The notes below the pieces were generated by a model, which saw only the letters and a program-made list of their open reading frames with translations, made no database searches and was not told the DNA's origin. A DNA stretch of 64,000 nucleotides. Origin: Halosolutus halophilus (GTDB taxonomy: Archaea > Halobacteriota > Halobacteria > Halobacteriales > Natrialbaceae). Positions 3,475 through 53,937 of the stretch are shown here, piece after piece; the first letter of the stretch is position 1, and each line of letters starts with the position of its first letter. The DNA is taken from assembly GCF_022869805.1 (NCBI RefSeq), contig NZ_CP094974.1, positions 1,798,001 to 1,862,000 of the forward strand, given 5' to 3'. A program made the translations under genes and the position numbers.

Positions 3475-3512
3475 CTCCGTAACTCGTCGACCCTGGCCCG
3501 TCGACGAGGGGG

Positions 3513-3896
3513 TCAGTGTTCGACGAATTCGATCAGGATCCCGCCCGTGTCTTTGGGATGCAGGAACGCGACCTCGTGACCCCACGCGCCGGGGCGAGGT
3601 TCCTCGTCGATCACTCGCACGTCGTGCGCGCGCGCGGTCGTGAGCGCGCTCTCGATACCGTCGGTCGCGAGCGCGAGGTGGTGGATGCCCGGGCCGTTGT
3701 TCTCGAGGTAGTTGGAGATGGTCCCGTCCTCGATCGGTTCGAGCAGTTCGAGGTAGCCGCCGTCGCAGTCGAGGAAGACGACGTGCATGCCGTCGAACTC
3801 CTCCTCGTGGGCGATCTCGAGGCCGAAGAGGTCGGCGTACAGCCCGGCGAGTGCCTGTGCGTCGTCGGTCGCGATACCGGCGTGATCGAAGTGCAT
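3513..3896 (-). CDS. mce: methylmalonyl-CoA epimerase
   Basis: A 127-residue single-domain protein of the vicinal oxygen chelate superfamily. It interconverts the (R) and (S) forms of methylmalonyl-CoA in propionate and odd-chain metabolism. Family features are the opening MHFDHAGIATDDAQALAGLY, the metal-ligand glutamate in GGYLELLEP, the histidines of GPGIHHLALATDGI and the end GGILIEFVEH. Length is typical. It lies in the same direction as the methylmalonyl-CoA mutase large subunit (4939-6621), with an aldo/keto reductase gene between, so the three may be co-transcribed. Confidence 0.93.
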   Translation of the reverse strand: MHFDHAGIATDDAQALAGLYADLFGLEIAHEEEFDGMHVVFLDCDGGYLELLEPIEDGTISNYLENNGPGIHHLALATDGIESALTTARAHDVRVIDEEPRPGAWGHEVAFLHPKDTGGILIEFVEH

Positions 3897-21292: not shown

Positions 21293-22462
21293 TCAGAACG
21301 CGCGCTTGATCTTCTCGAAGAAGCCTTCGGTGACCTCGATCTCGTCGCCGCCGGCCTCGGCGAACGCTTCGAGGGCCTCTCGCTGGTCCTCGTTGAGGGA
21401 CTCCGGCGTGACGACCTGTACCTTGACGTAGAGGTCGCCGTGGCCACGACCGCGCAGTCGGGGCATCCCTTTCCCCTCGAGGCGGAAGGTTTCCCCGCTC
21501 TGGGTTCCCTTCGGAATCTCGAACTCGGCGGCTCCGGACAGCGTCGGCACTTCGACGGTGTCGCCGAACGTGGCTTGCGGGAACGAGATCGGCAGGCGGT
21601 AGCGGAGGTCGTCGCCCTCGCGCTCGAACTCCTCGTGGTCGGCGATCGTCACGTCGATCAGGAGGTCACCGTGCGGCCCGCCTTCGGGACTCGGCGCCCC
21701 TTCCCGCTCCATCCGGAGGGTCTGTCCGTCCTGGATACCCGCGGGCACCTCGACGGTCAGCGTGGCCTCGTTGCGGACGTAGCCCTCGCCGCGACACTCG
21801 CTGCAGGTCTCGGAGTAGAGGGTCCCCTCGCCCTCACAGCGGGGACAGGTCGTCGTCTGCTGGACGCGCCCGAGCGGCGTCTGCTGGACCTGGGTCACCT
21901 GCCCGCGACCCTGACACTCGGGACAGGTCCGGGCGTCCGCGTCCGGCGGGTGCCCCTCGCCGCCGCAGACGTCGCAGGCTTCCGGCCGCTCGACGGTGAA
22001 CTGCTTCTCGACGCCCTCGTAGGCCTCCTCGAGGTCGATCTCGAGTTCCGTGCGGAGGTCGCGCCCCTTCCGCGGGCGGCTGCGACCGCGGCCGCGGCCG
22101 CCGCCGAAGACCTGCTCGAAGATGTCGCCGAGACCGCCGCCCATGCCGCCACCGCCCATGCCGCCACCCATCCCGCCGAACGGGCCGCCGCCCATACCGC
22201 CGGGGCCGTCCTCGCTGGCGTCGAATCCGTGCTTCTCGGCCTGTTCGTACCGATCGTGCCCCATTCGGTCGTAGGCCTGGCGTTTCTCCTCGTCGGTCAG
22301 GACCTGCTTCGCCTTCTGTATCTTCTTGAACTTCTTCTCGGCGTCCGGATCGTCGCTGACGTCCGGATGGTACTCGGTGGCCTTCTTTCGATAGGCCTGT
22401 TTGATTTCCTCGGTCGAGGCGTCGGGACTCACGCCGAGAACGTCGTAGAAATCCTCGCTCAT
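21293..22462 (-). CDS. dnaJ: molecular chaperone DnaJ (Hsp40)
   Basis: A 389-residue type I Hsp40 that delivers clients to DnaK and stimulates its ATPase. The J-domain (residues 1-70) has HPD at 32-34. A Gly/Phe/Met-rich linker follows (about 85-120), then four CxxCxGxG zinc repeats (CDVCGGEG, CPECQGRG, CPRCEGEG, CSECRGEG) and the C-terminal substrate domain ending EGFFEKIKRAF. Start MSEDFYDVLG at 22462 matches the haloarchaeal consensus; an in-frame ATG at 22474 would add four residues. It is the last gene of the grpE-dnaK-dnaJ cluster, with a 76-residue membrane protein between it and dnaK. Confidence 0.95.
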   Translation of the reverse strand: MSEDFYDVLGVSPDASTEEIKQAYRKKATEYHPDVSDDPDAEKKFKKIQKAKQVLTDEEKRQAYDRMGHDRYEQAEKHGFDASEDGPGGMGGGPFGGMGGGMGGGGMGGGLGDIFEQVFGGGRGRGRSRPRKGRDLRTELEIDLEEAYEGVEKQFTVERPEACDVCGGEGHPPDADARTCPECQGRGQVTQVQQTPLGRVQQTTTCPRCEGEGTLYSETCSECRGEGYVRNEATLTVEVPAGIQDGQTLRMEREGAPSPEGGPHGDLLIDVTIADHEEFEREGDDLRYRLPISFPQATFGDTVEVPTLSGAAEFEIPKGTQSGETFRLEGKGMPRLRGRGHGDLYVKVQVVTPESLNEDQREALEAFAEAGGDEIEVTEGFFEKIKRAF

Positions 22463-22974: not shown

Positions 22975-24924
22975 TCAGTCTTCGTCCTCGTCGTCGACGT
23001 CTTCGAAGTCCGCGTCGACGAACTCCTCGTCCTCGTCGCCGGTCGCGCCGGCAGCACCAGCGCCGGGGCCGGGGTTCGGACCGCCGCCCATGCCACCGGG
23101 GCCCGCGCCTGCAGCGCCGCCCGCGGCACCGCCTGCTGCGCCACCTGCGCCACCGCCGGCAGCACCGCCAGCACCGGCGCCGGCCTGCTGGTAGACCTGC
23201 TTGCCGATTTCCTGGAGTTCCTTGCTCAGGTCCTCGGTCGCGGATTCGATGTCGTCGGCCTCCGCCTCGTCGTCGTCGATCGTCTCCTCGACGTCCTCGA
23301 TGGCCGCCTCGATGTCGGCACGCAGGTCGTCGTCGACCTGCTCGTTCTCCTCGAGGAGCGTCTCGGCCCGCTGGATCGTCGCCTCGGCGGTGTTGCGGGC
23401 CTCGATCCGCTTGCGCTTTTGCTCGTCTTCCTCTGCGTGTTTCTCGGCCTCGCGCTGCATGCGCTCGATCTCGGAGTCGGAGAGACCGGCACCGCCCTCG
23501 ATGGTGATTTCTTCGCTGGTGCCGGTACCCTTGTCCTCCGCCGAGACGTTGACGATGCCGTTCTCGTCGATCGAGAACGTGACCTCGATCTGCGGCGTTC
23601 CGGCGGGTGCCGGCGGGATGCCGGTCAGGTGGAACTCGCCGAGCAGTTCGTTCTTCTCGGCGAGTTCGCGCTCGCCCTGGAAGACTCGCACCTGCACGGA
23701 GGTCTGGTTGTCCGCCGCGGTGGTGAAGATCTTCGACTCCTCGGTCGGGATCGTGGTGTTCTTCTCGATGAGTCGCTCGAAGAGGCCGCCCTTGACCTCG
23801 ATACCGAGCGAGAGCGGGGTGACGTCCAGCAGGACGATGTCGTCCACCTCGCCGCCGAGGACGCCGCCCTGGATCGCCGCGCCGAGCGCGACGGCCTCGT
23901 CGGGGTTGACGTTCTTCTGGGGCTCCTTGCCGGTGAGTTCCTCGACCTTCTCGGCGACCTGCGGCATCCGGGTCGAACCACCGACGAGCAGCACCTCGTC
24001 GATGTCGTCCTTCTCGTAGCCGGCGTCCGCGAGCGCCTGCTCGGTCGGTTCGACGGTGCGCTCGATGAGGTCCGTTGTGAGCGACTCGAACTTCGCACGG
24101 GTCAGCGACTCCTCCAGGTGGATCGGGCCGTCGTCCGTGGCGGTGATGAAGGGCAGGTTGATCTCGGTCTCCTTGCGCGAGGAGAGTTCGATCTTGGCTT
24201 CCTCCGCGGCGTCTTTGAGCCGCTGGAGCGCCTGCCGGTCCTCGCGGAGGTCGATGCCGTGGTCCTCCTCGAAGTTGTCCGCGAGCCAGTCGATGATCGC
24301 CTGGTCCCAGTCGTCGCCACCGAGGTCGTTGTCACCGTTGGTCGCGACGACCTCGTAGACGCCGCCGCCGAGGTCGAGGATCGAGACGTCGAACGTCCCG
24401 CCACCGAGGTCGTAGACGAGCACGGTCTGGTCCTCGTCGTCGTCGAGGCCGTAGGCCATCGACGCGGCCGTCGGTTCGTTGATGATGCGCTCGACCTCGA
24501 AGCCTGCGATCTCGCCGGCGTCCTTGGTCGCCTGACGCTGTCGGTCCGAGAAGTACGCCGGGACCGTAATGACGGCCTTCTCGACCTCGTCGCCGAGGTA
24601 GTCCTCGGCGTCGCGCTTGATCTTCTGGAGGATCATCGCCGAGATCTGTTCGGGCGTATACTCCTCGTTCTCGATCTCGACGGTGTAGTCCTCCTCGCCG
24701 ATGTGACGCTTGATCGACTGGATCGTCTTTTCGGGGTTCTGAACAGCCTGGTTCTTCGCCGGTTTCCCGACGAGTCGTTCCTCCTCGTCGGTAAAGGCGA
24801 CGACGGACGGTGTCGTCCGCTCACCTTCCGCGTTGACGATGATCTCCGGATCTCCGCCTTCCATCACCGCGAACGCGCTGTTCGTCGTCCCGAGGTCGAT
24901 TCCGAGAATCTTGTTGCTCGCCAT
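22975..24924 (-). CDS. dnaK: molecular chaperone DnaK (Hsp70)
   Basis: A 649-residue Hsp70. The ATPase domain begins [17 protein letters not shown] and includes [37 protein letters not shown] and [20 protein letters not shown]. The substrate domain carries [20 protein letters not shown] and the [17 protein letters not shown] region. The last 75 residues are a long Gly/Ala/Pro/Met-rich tail followed by an acidic [16 protein letters not shown] end. ATG 24924 is chosen because [12 protein letters not shown] is the standard start. It follows grpE on the same strand after a 350-bp gap with its own TATA-like element. Confidence 0.97.
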
Positions 24925-49476: not shown

Positions 49477-49693
49477 TACTGAACGGACGGTCCGAAGCGG
49501 AATAACGCTTGGCCCAACGTCGCCACGCCACCGTTCTCGTCGAGGGCCGCTCGGATCGGTCGTAAAGTGACGGTCCACCGTCGAGAACCCCCGTTCTCGG
49601 CCCCGATAGTGTCGTCCCGACCTGCGCGACGGCCGTCACAGCGCGCGGAAAGGGGTGGCTTACTATGTGTCGCGATGGACTACTCGTTCGGTG

Positions 49694-50449
49694 ATGATGC
49701 CCGCCGAAGAGCGGCTCTCGGATCATCTGGTCGAGGACGAATCAGTGCAGCGTCTCACGTCGGGGCGCTTTCTCGAGAACCCGACCCGGGAGCGGCTGGC
49801 CGTGGGCCTCACCGATCGGCGCTTGCTGTGCGTCTCGAACGGCGGCTCGTTCACGGATATCCGGTACGACTACGTCAGTTCGATCGAGAGCCGGCAGCGA
49901 ACCAGGTTGCGCTTCAGCAGCGGGCCCGAGGGGCAACGCGTGCTGGGGCTCGTCGGTGGTATCCTGGCGATCGGAGTCCTGCTCGTCGGTTTCGGACGGC
50001 TCTCGACCGGCGGTGTCGTCCGAGACGCGGTGACGGTGGGACTCGCCATCGCGACCGTCGCGATTACGACCGCGATCGTTCACGCGGGCCGGCGAGACGG
50101 TCAAGATACGTCGCGCGAGCAACTGTTCGTCGGTACCGGGGTGGTCTCCGTCCTCGTCCTCGTCAGCGTCGGGCTCTTCTCTTCGACCCTCGTGGCCCCG
50201 CTGTTCGTCGTCACGACGCTCGGTGGGCTGGCACTCGTCTGGTACGGACAGCGACACCGGGACCGGTTCGACGAGATCGGTCTCGACCGCCAGCGGGAGA
50301 CACACCTCAGTATCACCACCGTCGACGGCCGAACCATCGACATCGCGGTCGAGGCCGATACCGACGTCGACCGGATGCTCAGCGCGGCCGTCTACCGCGA
50401 CGCGTCCCCGGCAGCCGTTCACCTGGACGCCGATTCGCAGTCGGGATGA
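49694..50449 (+). CDS. PH-domain-like membrane protein
   Basis: A 251-residue protein. The N-terminal part (ESVQRLTSGRFLENPTRERL, then GLTDRRLLCVSNGGSFTDIR) resembles the bacterial PH-like domain. Four hydrophobic segments fill residues about 80-190, and a second PH-like segment (ETHLSITTVDGRTIDIAVEA) ends the protein. Function unknown. The double ATG at 49694/49697 marks the start. Confidence 0.65.
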   Translation: MMPAEERLSDHLVEDESVQRLTSGRFLENPTRERLAVGLTDRRLLCVSNGGSFTDIRYDYVSSIESRQRTRLRFSSGPEGQRVLGLVGGILAIGVLLVGFGRLSTGGVVRDAVTVGLAIATVAITTAIVHAGRRDGQDTSREQLFVGTGVVSVLVLVSVGLFSSTLVAPLFVVTTLGGLALVWYGQRHRDRFDEIGLDRQRETHLSITTVDGRTIDIAVEADTDVDRMLSAAVYRDASPAAVHLDADSQSG

Positions 50450-50506
50450 CCCGACTGTGGCGGCTCTCCACCCCGCGATCGACGATCGGCAGCCACCGGT
50501 TCGACG

Positions 50507-50821
50507 TCACGACAGGCGAGCGAGACACTCCCGACAGTACGTCACGTCCGATCGATTCGCGCTGCCACAGGCGGGACAGAACCCCGTCTTCGACTCGTCT
50601 ACCTCGATCCCGGCGCCGCGTGCGAGCACGGTCAGCACGTCGTCGTTCGCGAAGTCGTCGGGATCCTGGCCCTGTTTGCGTGCCCACTCGGCGAGGAAGG
50701 CGTCGTCCCGTAACCGCTCCAGTCCGCGAACCAGGCCCAGAAAGAGTATCGTCGGCGCGACCGCCACGAACGCAGCCACGGTGAGTCGGCCCGCGATCGA
50801 GTAGGTTCCCGGGTCATCCAT
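50507..50821 (-). CDS. zinc-ribbon membrane protein
   Basis: A 104-residue protein with one N-terminal hydrophobic segment (LTVAAFVAVAPTILFLGLVR), a polar stretch, and a C-terminal zinc ribbon (CPACGSANRSDVTYCRECLA) with two CxxC pairs. This layout occurs in small archaeal membrane proteins of unknown function. It is convergent with the gene at 49694 and divergent from the repeat protein at 51162. Confidence 0.72.
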   Translation of the reverse strand: MDDPGTYSIAGRLTVAAFVAVAPTILFLGLVRGLERLRDDAFLAEWARKQGQDPDDFANDDVLTVLARGAGIEVDESKTGFCPACGSANRSDVTYCRECLARLS

Positions 50822-51161
50822 GGGTTCGTTACTTCGCCGAGCCAGATACGTCTCTCGCCGGTCGGCCTGTTGATAGCTGTCTCGAGGTGGCTGGATCGGT
50901 ACCCGCGTCAGTGCCGTCTTCGGCGGGGTCTGCGGCGTCACCGCCGATCGATCGTCTGCCCGGCGTCACGGCGCTGGTCCCGCCGTTGGCGATCGGTGAC
51001 CGGGCGGTCGCGATCGGGGACTCGAGTCCGATCGCGAACGCGAACAGTTCCGTCTCGGTGACTGTCCGGCCGTTGATGAACGACTATTCCCGTCTCGAGT
51101 TCAAATAGTCGGCCATGGACCCGAAGACCGCACATATCGTTCGAATAGAGCGTGAGCGACG
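50822..51161. other. intergenic region between divergent genes
   Basis: A 340-bp gap with normal GC and no convincing gene. A 73-codon plus-strand frame (50887-51108, GTG start) is rejected because it is low in acidic residues and has no recognisable domain. A TATA-like TTCGAATAGAG lies at about 51140-51150, close to the repeat-protein ATG. Confidence 0.4.
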
Positions 51162-51818
51162 ATGAACCCGAATCGAGTCGACTTCGTCGTCGATCTCTTG
51201 TACGGCGTGATGATCTTCGTCGCAGTCGTACTCATCCTCGTGGTCGGGACTGGCATCGGCATCGCGTTCGGACTGGGCGTGCTGGTTTCCTACATGATCC
51301 ACGTCGGGTGGAAGATGGCTCGGTTCGATCCCGACTGGATGACCAGCGAGGTCGTCGAACGGGTCGAGGAGACGGTCAGCGAAGAGGTCGAGAAGACGGT
51401 CGGTGACACGGTCAGCGAGGAAGTCGAGAAGTCCGTCGGAGACACTGTCAGCGAAGAGGTCGAGAAGACGGTCAGCGACACGGTGAGTCAGGAGGTCGAT
51501 AATGTGGCCGAGAAGGTCGAGGAGACGGTCAGCAAGGAGGTCAGCGAAACGGTGGAGGAGACGGTCAGCGAAGAGGTCGAGAAGACGGTCAGCGAGGAAG
51601 TCGAGAAGTCCGTCGGAGATACTGTCAGCGAAGAGGTCGAGAAGTCGGTCAGCGACACGGTGAGCCAGGAGGTCGACGAAGTGATCGAGACCGTCGAGGA
51701 AATCAGCGAGCGCGCCGAGCAGGAATCGCGGCCGGACGACTCCGACGCGGACCCGGAGGAGTCGATCGACGACGATTCGGACGAAGTGGAGGGAAGATCG
51801 TCGCGCGATCGGACGTGA
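51162..51818 (+). CDS. membrane-anchored coiled-coil repeat protein
   Basis: A 218-residue protein of unusual design. Residues 8-45 are one or two membrane segments (VVDLLYGVMIFVAVVLILVV, GLGVLVSYMIHVGW). Residues about 62-178 are a charged repeat built from a 12-residue unit ETVSEEVEKTVG / DTVSEEVEKSVG with Val at nearly every fourth position. The C-terminus is acidic and disordered. I do not recognise a family. A role as a membrane-tethered filament, spacer or scaffold is inferred only from shape. Confidence 0.75.
   Translation: MNPNRVDFVVDLLYGVMIFVAVVLILVVGTGIGIAFGLGVLVSYMIHVGWKMARFDPDWMTSEVVERVEETVSEEVEKTVGDTVSEEVEKSVGDTVSEEVEKTVSDTVSQEVDNVAEKVEETVSKEVSETVEETVSEEVEKTVSEEVEKSVGDTVSEEVEKSVSDTVSQEVDEVIETVEEISERAEQESRPDDSDADPEESIDDDSDEVEGRSSRDRT
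51369..51686 (+). repeat. tandem 36-bp / 12-residue repeat array
   Basis: The array encodes residues about 70-175 of the protein at 51162. Units read (D/E)TVSEEVEK(T/S)V(G/S), and a larger duplication of about 59 residues is visible (residues 85-113 match 144-172). At the DNA level the units read GAGACGGTCAGCGAAGAGG with variations. Confidence 0.8.
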
Positions 51819-52054
51819 GAGCCGCGTCTCCGTTCCCCTCGTCTCCGTTCCCCTCGTCTCGGTTGCGGTGCCCGATCGCGGTCGTCGAGAGGACCAGTTG
51901 GTAGCGCCTACCCGGTCGGCTGCGACTCGTCGGCGATCGGTCGGTCGCGGTCGGATCGGAACGATCGACCAGAACCTCGTGGACGAACACGATGCCGAGG
52001 CCCAGCACGTGGCCGGAAACCGCCGCATCGGCGGACGAATCGGTGTCGATCCGA

Positions 52055-53335
52055 TCACGCGGCTGGAACGATGCGATAGAGACCGCCGCCGTCAGCGCCG
52101 GTTCCGAGTACGTACAGCTCCCCGTTTGCGTCCCGGCCAAACGAGAGTATCTGCTCGAGTTTCGCTTCGTCGTCGATCTCGATGACGCCGGTCGGCCACT
52201 GCTCGTCGCTGTCGGCGGGTCGAACGGCAGCGAACAACCGTCCGTCCGACGCGAGATCACCGAAGACGTAGACGCTCTCTAACGCCGGCAGTGCCGAGCC
52301 GCGGTAGACGTATCCGCCAATGACCGACACGCCGCTAACGCCTGCTCCTTCCGCCGCGTGTGGATACTCGACGATCGGATCGAGAAGCGGTTCGCCGCCC
52401 CGGACGTCCGCGGCCGTCTCGTCCGGACAGTCCTCGTCCCTGTAGCAGTGGGTTCCCTCCTTGACGTTCCAGCCGTAATTGCCGCCCTTCTGGACGAGAT
52501 TCACTTCCTCGTAGTCGTTCTCGCCGACGTCGGCGACGAAGAAGTCGCCGTCGTCGAACGACATCCGCCACGGGTTCCGGAACCCCCACGCGTAGTACTC
52601 GTCGAGTCCCGGTCGACCGACCAGCGGGTTGTCGTCGGGCACGGTGTACTCCTGTTCGCTCGTCCGCTCGTCGACGTCGAGACGCAGAATACTGCCCAGG
52701 AAGTCTTCGGTCACGTCCTGTCCACCGCCGCCGCCACCGCCGCCCGCACCGACGGTGACGTAGAGGTAGCCGTCCGGTCCGAACGCGATATCGCCGCCGT
52801 TGTGGAAGTCCTGTGGCTGCGGAATTTCGAGGACGATGCGTTCGGAATCACGCTTCGCTCGCCTGCCGTCGTCGGTCGCCTCGAACGCCGCGACCACTCC
52901 CGTGTGATCGTAGTCGTCCGGCGTCCCCGGCCGGCGCGGGGCGCTGTAGTGGACGAACAGACGTCGGTTCTCGTCGAATTCGGGATGAAGCGCCATGCCC
53001 AGCAAGCCTCGCTCACCTCCGGTCTCGATCGCCTCGCGCAGATCGAGTATCGGGTCGTCGAGACGGCCGTCCGACTCGTGGACGACGACGCGGCCGTCCC
53101 GCTCTGCGACGTACCGTCGATCCACGCCGGGTGCGAATTCCACGGCCAGTGGAAACGCCAATCCGTCGATCAGCGTCTCGAGTCCGAGCGTCTCCGGTAG
53201 TCGCTCGATCGCATCCTGCGCTTCGTTCGACCTGGATTCGTCGGCGGACGATCGCAGCGCACATCCGGCGAACCCCGTCATCGTGCTGACGGCCGCCATC
53301 GTCAGAAATCGCCGTCGGCCCTGCGGAGGTCCCAT
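52055..53335 (-). CDS. PQQ-dependent sugar dehydrogenase-like Tat lipoprotein
   Basis: A 426-residue exported protein. GRRRFLTMAAVSTMTGFAGC is a Tat signal with a lipobox cysteine. The mature part is a soluble-glucose-dehydrogenase beta-propeller (RGLLGMALHPEFDENRRLFV, then FHNGGDIAFGPDGYLYVTVG with an active-site His, and YYAWGFRNPWRMSFD). These enzymes oxidise sugars with PQQ or similar quinones outside the cell. A Gly-run (GGGGGGGG) lies in the propeller loop. A second paralogue is at 57178. Confidence 0.87.
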   Translation of the reverse strand: MGPPQGRRRFLTMAAVSTMTGFAGCALRSSADESRSNEAQDAIERLPETLGLETLIDGLAFPLAVEFAPGVDRRYVAERDGRVVVHESDGRLDDPILDLREAIETGGERGLLGMALHPEFDENRRLFVHYSAPRRPGTPDDYDHTGVVAAFEATDDGRRAKRDSERIVLEIPQPQDFHNGGDIAFGPDGYLYVTVGAGGGGGGGGQDVTEDFLGSILRLDVDERTSEQEYTVPDDNPLVGRPGLDEYYAWGFRNPWRMSFDDGDFFVADVGENDYEEVNLVQKGGNYGWNVKEGTHCYRDEDCPDETAADVRGGEPLLDPIVEYPHAAEGAGVSGVSVIGGYVYRGSALPALESVYVFGDLASDGRLFAAVRPADSDEQWPTGVIEIDDEAKLEQILSFGRDANGELYVLGTGADGGGLYRIVPAA

Positions 53336-53937
53336 AGGGTTCGGACGACCCCGAGACGGAAATACACCTCTTCGATCGATGATGAACTATACGCGTCGTC
53401 GACTGATCGCAACTCCGACAGGTGGCCCGAAATCGTATGCAACGAGCAGGTCATCGTGGACGTGGCCGAAGACAAAAAATACGCCGGCAAGAGCACGTAG
53501 AGGAAAACGAAGCCGAGTTCCAGAACTTGTCACATCTCAGTAGGCGGTCAGTTGAGAGAGGTGAGCGGTGGTAGAGAGCCGGAACAAACCTCGTCAGCAC
53601 CACTACGTGACAACAACGAGACGTCTTGGGCGATCGGAAGGCGACGTCACACTGGTCTCCTGTTAGCCAAGCTGTAGTTTATGCGATTGTATTTTTCATA
53701 ACATATGGATTCAAACAATACCTGCAACATCACTGTTATGAGTTTGTACATTGCGACAGCATACAACCTGATGCTCGAACAAGATGCTTCGGAAATACAT
53801 CCGATACCCAATCTCCAGACGACACCGAGGACGCTCGTATTACGTCACGTGAATTCTTCGTTGGGAATGAGGCCGGTGATAAATAGTGGTCGTTTACCGG
53901 ACGGTTTCGGGAAGAGATATGCTTGGGGTGTGCGTCG
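53336..53937. other. long AT-richer intergenic region
   Basis: A 602-bp gap that becomes clearly AT-richer from about 53660 to 53930. Several short frames exist, but none has haloarchaeal protein composition. Best of these is 53626-53886, with one hydrophobic stretch (AVVYAIVFFITYGFKQYL). GATAAATAG at 53877-53886 may be the TATA box of the MCP gene. A fragment of unknown coding origin may lie at 53390-53500 (WPEIVCNEQVIVDVAEDKKY), ending in a stop. Confidence 0.4.

Follow-up and report, generated by a model that had tools for sequence, protein, structure and literature searches.

What kind of helix, if any, is specified by a protein that places valine at nearly every fourth residue, and what would such a protein do at a membrane? 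The question is raised by a gene at positions 51162..51818 (forward strand) of the window, the 64,000-nucleotide stretch of the Halosolutus halophilus genome analyzed here, which encodes 218 amino acids from an ATG start (stop codon counted in the coordinates) and has homologs along its full length; relatives occur in 14 named genomes. A 324-amino-acid open reading frame on the reverse strand (51084-52058) was taken as a mirror of the repeat and rejected as a gene. The valine spacing pointed out in an earlier note on this DNA was borne out for residues 68 to 178, although the stripe is less strict than that note had it: from Val68 to Val178 the spacings run eleven 4s, one 3, fourteen 4s, one 3, and one 4, so that a spacing of 4 dominates but two 3-residue breaks bring the mean to 3.93. 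Val-Val pairs at distance 4 number 27, against 7.7 expected, a count reached in none of 2,000 residue shuffles. On the basis of the valine spacing and the predicted helix described below, we delimit the aliphatic tetrad array as residues 64 to 178 (51351..51695, forward strand), with the 3-residue steps at residues 112 to 115 and 171 to 174. The 12-residue unit proposed in the note, DTVSEEVEKSVG, does carry valine at positions 3, 7, and 11, but the invariant unit is the tetrad (xxxV); TRF finds overlapping periods of 12, 24, 36, and 60 nt in the repeat, and the 12-mer is therefore better called a tetrad unit. The internal duplication also held up, with 59 residues as the offset of its copies: those at 51408..51523 and 51585..51700 (repeat family D1, forward strand) lie 177 nt, or 59 codons, apart and share 91% identity over their best-matching 116 nt, the clearly matching stretch being about 39 to 42 codons.

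An AlphaFold2 (AF2) model of the window protein, made with 45 sequences, contains helices at residues 3 to 28, 30 to 54, 57 to 72, and 84 to 188 (mean pLDDT, 67; pTM, 0.29). The first two lie in the conserved N-terminal domain that defines the family (residues 1 to 60, MNPNRVDF...ARFDPDWM; 51162..51341, forward strand), in which 18 positions of the first 64 residues are invariant among 24 relatives. Together with hydropathy, they predict membrane helices at about residues 8 to 28 (51183..51245) and 30 to 52 (51249..51317). The start of the protein, claimed earlier to be a membrane segment, is indeed hydrophobic, but it is predicted to form two helices with a tight turn at residue 29 instead of a single segment; the AF2 model of a short relative has the same hairpin (residues 3 to 28 and 30 to 55) at lower confidence. 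A hairpin plus a helix is predicted for both proteins. The suggestion of a tethered rod fits the predicted helix 84 to 188, at modest confidence, but the N-terminal part is more than an anchor: it forms the family's conserved core. Because Val, Thr, and Gly do not favor helices, the rod on its own could be disordered in part. Many family members end in a module like EVDEVIDRLEEVNERVDRRPRxEEVEE; in the window protein, a degenerate version of the family motif EVDEVIDRLEEVNERVDRRPR is present as VDEVIETVEEISERAEQE at residues 171 to 188 (51672..51725, forward strand; alignment with relatives). It is followed by the acidic tail that the note had described, at about residues 189 to 218 (51726..51815, forward strand), predicted from its sequence, low pLDDT, and lack of a helix to be unstructured. 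We infer that both ends of the protein are cytoplasmic, since conserved R5, K51, and R54 border the hydrophobic stretch and the tail is very acidic. A Foldseek comparison of the AF2 model with the PDB gave no match, and a profile of the N-terminal domain found no convincing relative among solved structures.

With a profile built on the first 64 residues, the family is detected in 99 of 145 complete Halobacteria genomes. In a 197-genome sample of the phylum, the 25 genomes with a match all belong to the same order, the other genomes (about 164) giving no match, and a 106-residue query finds matches in 46 of 61 relatives. Protein length ranges from 113 to 311 amino acids in the first 56 members, and across the family the tail holds anywhere between a few and about 45 tetrads. 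The expectation that no database family already describes the repeat was confirmed: Pfam and NCBIfam matches stayed below the curated cut-offs, the N-terminal domain had no match in NCBIfam, and we found no curated family that covers these proteins. Open-licence papers yielded no description of the family, and plasmid-borne copies are, where annotated, called “hypothetical protein.” Judging by these profiles, the protein belongs to an undescribed family, found only in Halobacteria among the genomes sampled.

Several weak matches were considered and rejected as memberships. For 25 of 45 relatives, the DUF445 (PF04286) profile matches the tetrads weakly, but in the window protein it scores 26.6 bits where the cut-off is 33.8, and the repeat alone matches, not the membrane domain. 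CdrL_M (PF24252) matches weakly and below cut-off in 11 of the 45; the DNA-binding N terminus and zinc-ribbon C terminus of the CdrL architecture are not found here, and this genome's own CdrL (L121) is built differently, without tetrads. Matches to GvpQ, EcsC, SseC, and similar families are likewise under their cut-offs and confined to the low-complexity repeat.

The commonest recurrent neighbor of family genes is a PiT (PHO4, PF01384) phosphate transporter: a PiT gene lies within 1.5 kb at 49 of 76 loci, compared with about 0.5 expected if a 3.6-Mb genome holds about 4.6 PiT matches, these counts being nonindependent since many loci share ancestry. Among the 49 loci, 17 are codirectional with PiT downstream (gaps of 48 to 246 bp), 26 are divergent, and 6 are convergent, and these orientations sit in different parts of the family tree. 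For three plasmid-borne members, the public annotation has “inorganic phosphate transporter” as the first annotated gene downstream, on the same strand. The window copy itself has no PiT gene within 1 Mb, and none is near its nearest relatives (L058 and L098 to L102); by tree path it is closest to unlinked copies of another genus of the same taxonomic family (g9), a grouping with weak support. The paralog that this genome also encodes, at 4257834, is flanked by two PiT genes (4256554-4257423 and 4258882-4259955). Elsewhere in this genome (C1:751752-752432 and 752437-752802, forward strand), two consecutive PHO4 matches occupy different open frames, and this PiT gene may be split or frameshifted. 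PiT is present in all 145 Halobacteria sampled and the family in 99, and PiT therefore does not require the family.

A second subfamily was reached by searching for GT at every 12th nucleotide and through weak matches of the 106-residue query; genome-wide, the GT pattern also picks up antisense reads and many unrelated repeats of the Gly/Val or Ser/Pro/Thr type. Examples (L161:1780-2340 and L164:3484-3942 on the reverse strand; L166:3955-4497, L163:4109-4738, and L167:3767-4522 on the forward strand) share the plan of a membrane hairpin, a W-E-K-M motif, and aliphatic tetrads, the last spelled otherwise (e.g., QVESEVEAQ), and hhalign relates the profile of this subfamily to that of the first family with a probability of 95.8% (E value, 8e-9). 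About 17 of 141 genomes carry it, extra weak matches being members of the first family, and in about 10 of 17 nonredundant genomes it is adjacent to PiT, usually lying immediately upstream on the same strand and often in operon order. The window genome also holds an apparently truncated member of this subfamily without its N-terminal part (L169, about 3493-3789, forward strand; G000:C1:2420495 on).

Proteins encoded beside PiT genes are not without precedent. PitR is PhoU-like and has neither a membrane hairpin nor a tetrad rod. The window family resembles this bacterial regulator (DUF47, PhoU_div, PF01865), whose gene lies beside pitA, in its predicted alpha-helical nature, its proposed accessory role, and its PiT adjacency, which was found for the family and the second subfamily but not for the window copy, and it differs in having the predicted hairpin and rod. 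Neither the window protein nor any of 45 relatives matches PF01865 in Pfam scans, and no match was found in the window genome. A simple replacement of PitR/DUF47 by this family is not supported, as 24 of the 28 PhoU_div-positive genomes among 145 Halobacteria carry both. Besides PitR, gene-linked PiT accessory proteins of bacteria include a small uncharacterized membrane protein, SCO1846, beside pitA (PMC13170248); as far as that source describes it, it resembles our family in being a small membrane protein with its gene next to pitA and differs in its bacterial origin and in that no tetrad array is reported there.

The tetrads themselves were analyzed in 76 family proteins with 2,198 tetrads. 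Valine fills 1,567 of 1,610 inner phase positions, and I, M, L, A, or F accounts for 40 of the 43 exceptions, which include only one Asp and no Gly, so that the aliphatic stripe is under selection. The other three tetrad positions have entropies of 2.0 to 2.6 bits, and the valine codons of the arrays vary synonymously (GTC, 1,705; GTG, 289; GTT, 145; GTA, 59). Growth of the repeat, another suggestion of the earlier note, is seen in the array lengths of close relatives: where the DNA around the gene is mostly about 85 to 94% identical, the proteins have 246, 234, 231, and 222 residues, indicating that the repeat turns over fast while its phase is kept.

Such a stripe is neither a heptad nor a hendecad, as had been noticed at the outset, with a power in the window array of 0.4 at a period of 3.5 and 3.1 at 3.667 versus 30 at 3.9. 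The aliphatic spectrum peaks at 3.94 residues with a power of 35, compared with at most 3.3 anywhere between 3.33 and 3.80. Across 69 family arrays, the hydrophobic period has a median of 3.96, the five second-subfamily arrays tested likewise peak at 4.0, and a chemotaxis-transducer coil from the same window, used as a control, peaks at 3.52. Hartmann et al. (2016) placed the lower limit of coiled-coil periods at 3.33 and expected the upper limit near 3.9 (PMC4786415), a range that both the window array and the family median exceed. On an ideal helix, the stripe would drift by +37 to +40 degrees per tetrad, or 829 degrees over the whole window array, and its valines would reach all azimuths, so that a single coiled-coil seam fails to explain it.

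Taken together, we consider it probable that these are accessory membrane proteins of PiT (PHO4-type) transporters, in which the hairpin carries a cytoplasmic helical rod; that the window copy has a PiT partner is inferred from the family, as this copy is not beside a PiT gene. In this mechanism, the conserved two-helix hairpin would associate with the transporter, and an alpha-helical rod of adjustable length would project from it, in the window protein about 105 residues or, if fully helical, about 16 nm. Given the positive drift of the stripe on a normal alpha-helix, the valines would wind right-handed around all faces without a single seam, and the rod may act as a multivalent self-association arm whose i,i+4 ridges cross steeply with those of several neighbors. 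Geometry suggests that the rod would thereby cluster the transporter or couple it to its regulation. A more specific version, which we regard as unlikely, holds that this is a natural helix family selected for a period of 4.0, whose valine-spiral patches turn by about 110 to 120 degrees per 12 residues and whose rods mesh by i,i+4 ridge crossings, clustering phosphate transporters under the haloarchaeal membrane. If it were true, helices would be assembling in a way that no known coiled-coil periodicity covers, and PiT would have a regulator of a new kind. PiT occurs in every Halobacteria genome sampled and detectable PitR/DUF47 is absent from most, making the family a widely distributed candidate PiT partner; its 2,198 tetrads also make up an extensive natural collection of predicted helices with a hydrophobic period beyond the range of coiled-coil theory, and hence a direct test of that limit.

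Alternatively, the tail could be a monomeric spacer, either a single alpha-helix (SAH) or a largely disordered acidic brush suited to high salt, with valines that stabilize the helix internally (i,i+4) and bind no partner while the hairpin alone works with PiT. The shortest members (113 to 130 residues) would be in keeping with this, as they retain the hairpin with most tetrads gone, and so would the rapid length change among close relatives, the modest pLDDT, and the 10 E-to-K pairs at i+4. The array does share with SAHs a long helix, many charged residues, and i,i+4 pairs, but SAHs are mostly charged according to the description in PMC5812594, whereas the window array has 49 charged residues (about 42%) and 31 valines (27%) among 116. 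Moreover, the near-absolute aliphatic phase exceeds what a spacer needs, and valine at a quarter of exposed positions should favor association in molar salt. We therefore hold a purely monomeric tail to be doubtful.

It is also conceivable that the protein is a structural rod only, i.e., a tethered stalk or cytoskeleton-like membrane element forming a conventional, if distorted, coiled coil, for which the PiT link is incidental genome architecture. Like canonical and noncanonical coiled coils (heptad, hendecad, 15/4, and the 19/5 of YadA), the array is predicted to be a long helix in which hydrophobic residues follow one another after 3 or 4 positions; phase exceptions are mainly 3-residue steps and 5-residue steps are almost absent, as befits a helix, the length varies freely, and 27 of the 76 members have no PiT link. 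Against it, the window array lacks power at coiled-coil periods, 59 of the 69 family arrays have a peak more than twice anything within 3.33 to 3.80, and the mean period of 3.93 to 4.0 lies past the 3.8 to 3.9 at which a single seam is still conceivable, a period of 4.0 being outside the accessible range and YadA at 3.8 the most extreme known case (PMC4786415). Linkage to PiT in three orientations and two subfamilies is, in addition, far beyond chance, and we judge a coil of this kind distinctly improbable. Finally, a mutational origin, in which a 12-nt unit slips within a permissive tail and yields the tetrads with no selection on the protein, would account for tandem repeats with fast-changing copy number, but it is already largely refuted, and very unlikely, given the conservative exceptions at the valine phase beside synonymous codon variation and variable other positions, and given a remote subfamily that retains the period in a different spelling.

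In the vicinity of the window copy, none of the neighbors recurs at other family loci except for one weak transducer match. They include two small unassigned proteins: one, a membrane protein, weakly matches a bacterial PH domain (49655-50449, forward strand), and the other has a DUF7577 zinc ribbon at its end (50507-50941, reverse strand). An Rfam search of positions 50000-53500 gave no match, and a viral origin of the gene was rejected because the viral contigs searched for the protein hold just an 11-residue fragment. Directly 3′ of the stop codon, at 51822-51866, lies a short 15-bp tandem repeat of approximately CGTCTCCGTTCCCCT, and TRF reports further short tandem repeats, their periods all divisible by three, at 22126-22202, 23106-23173, and 23230-23316.
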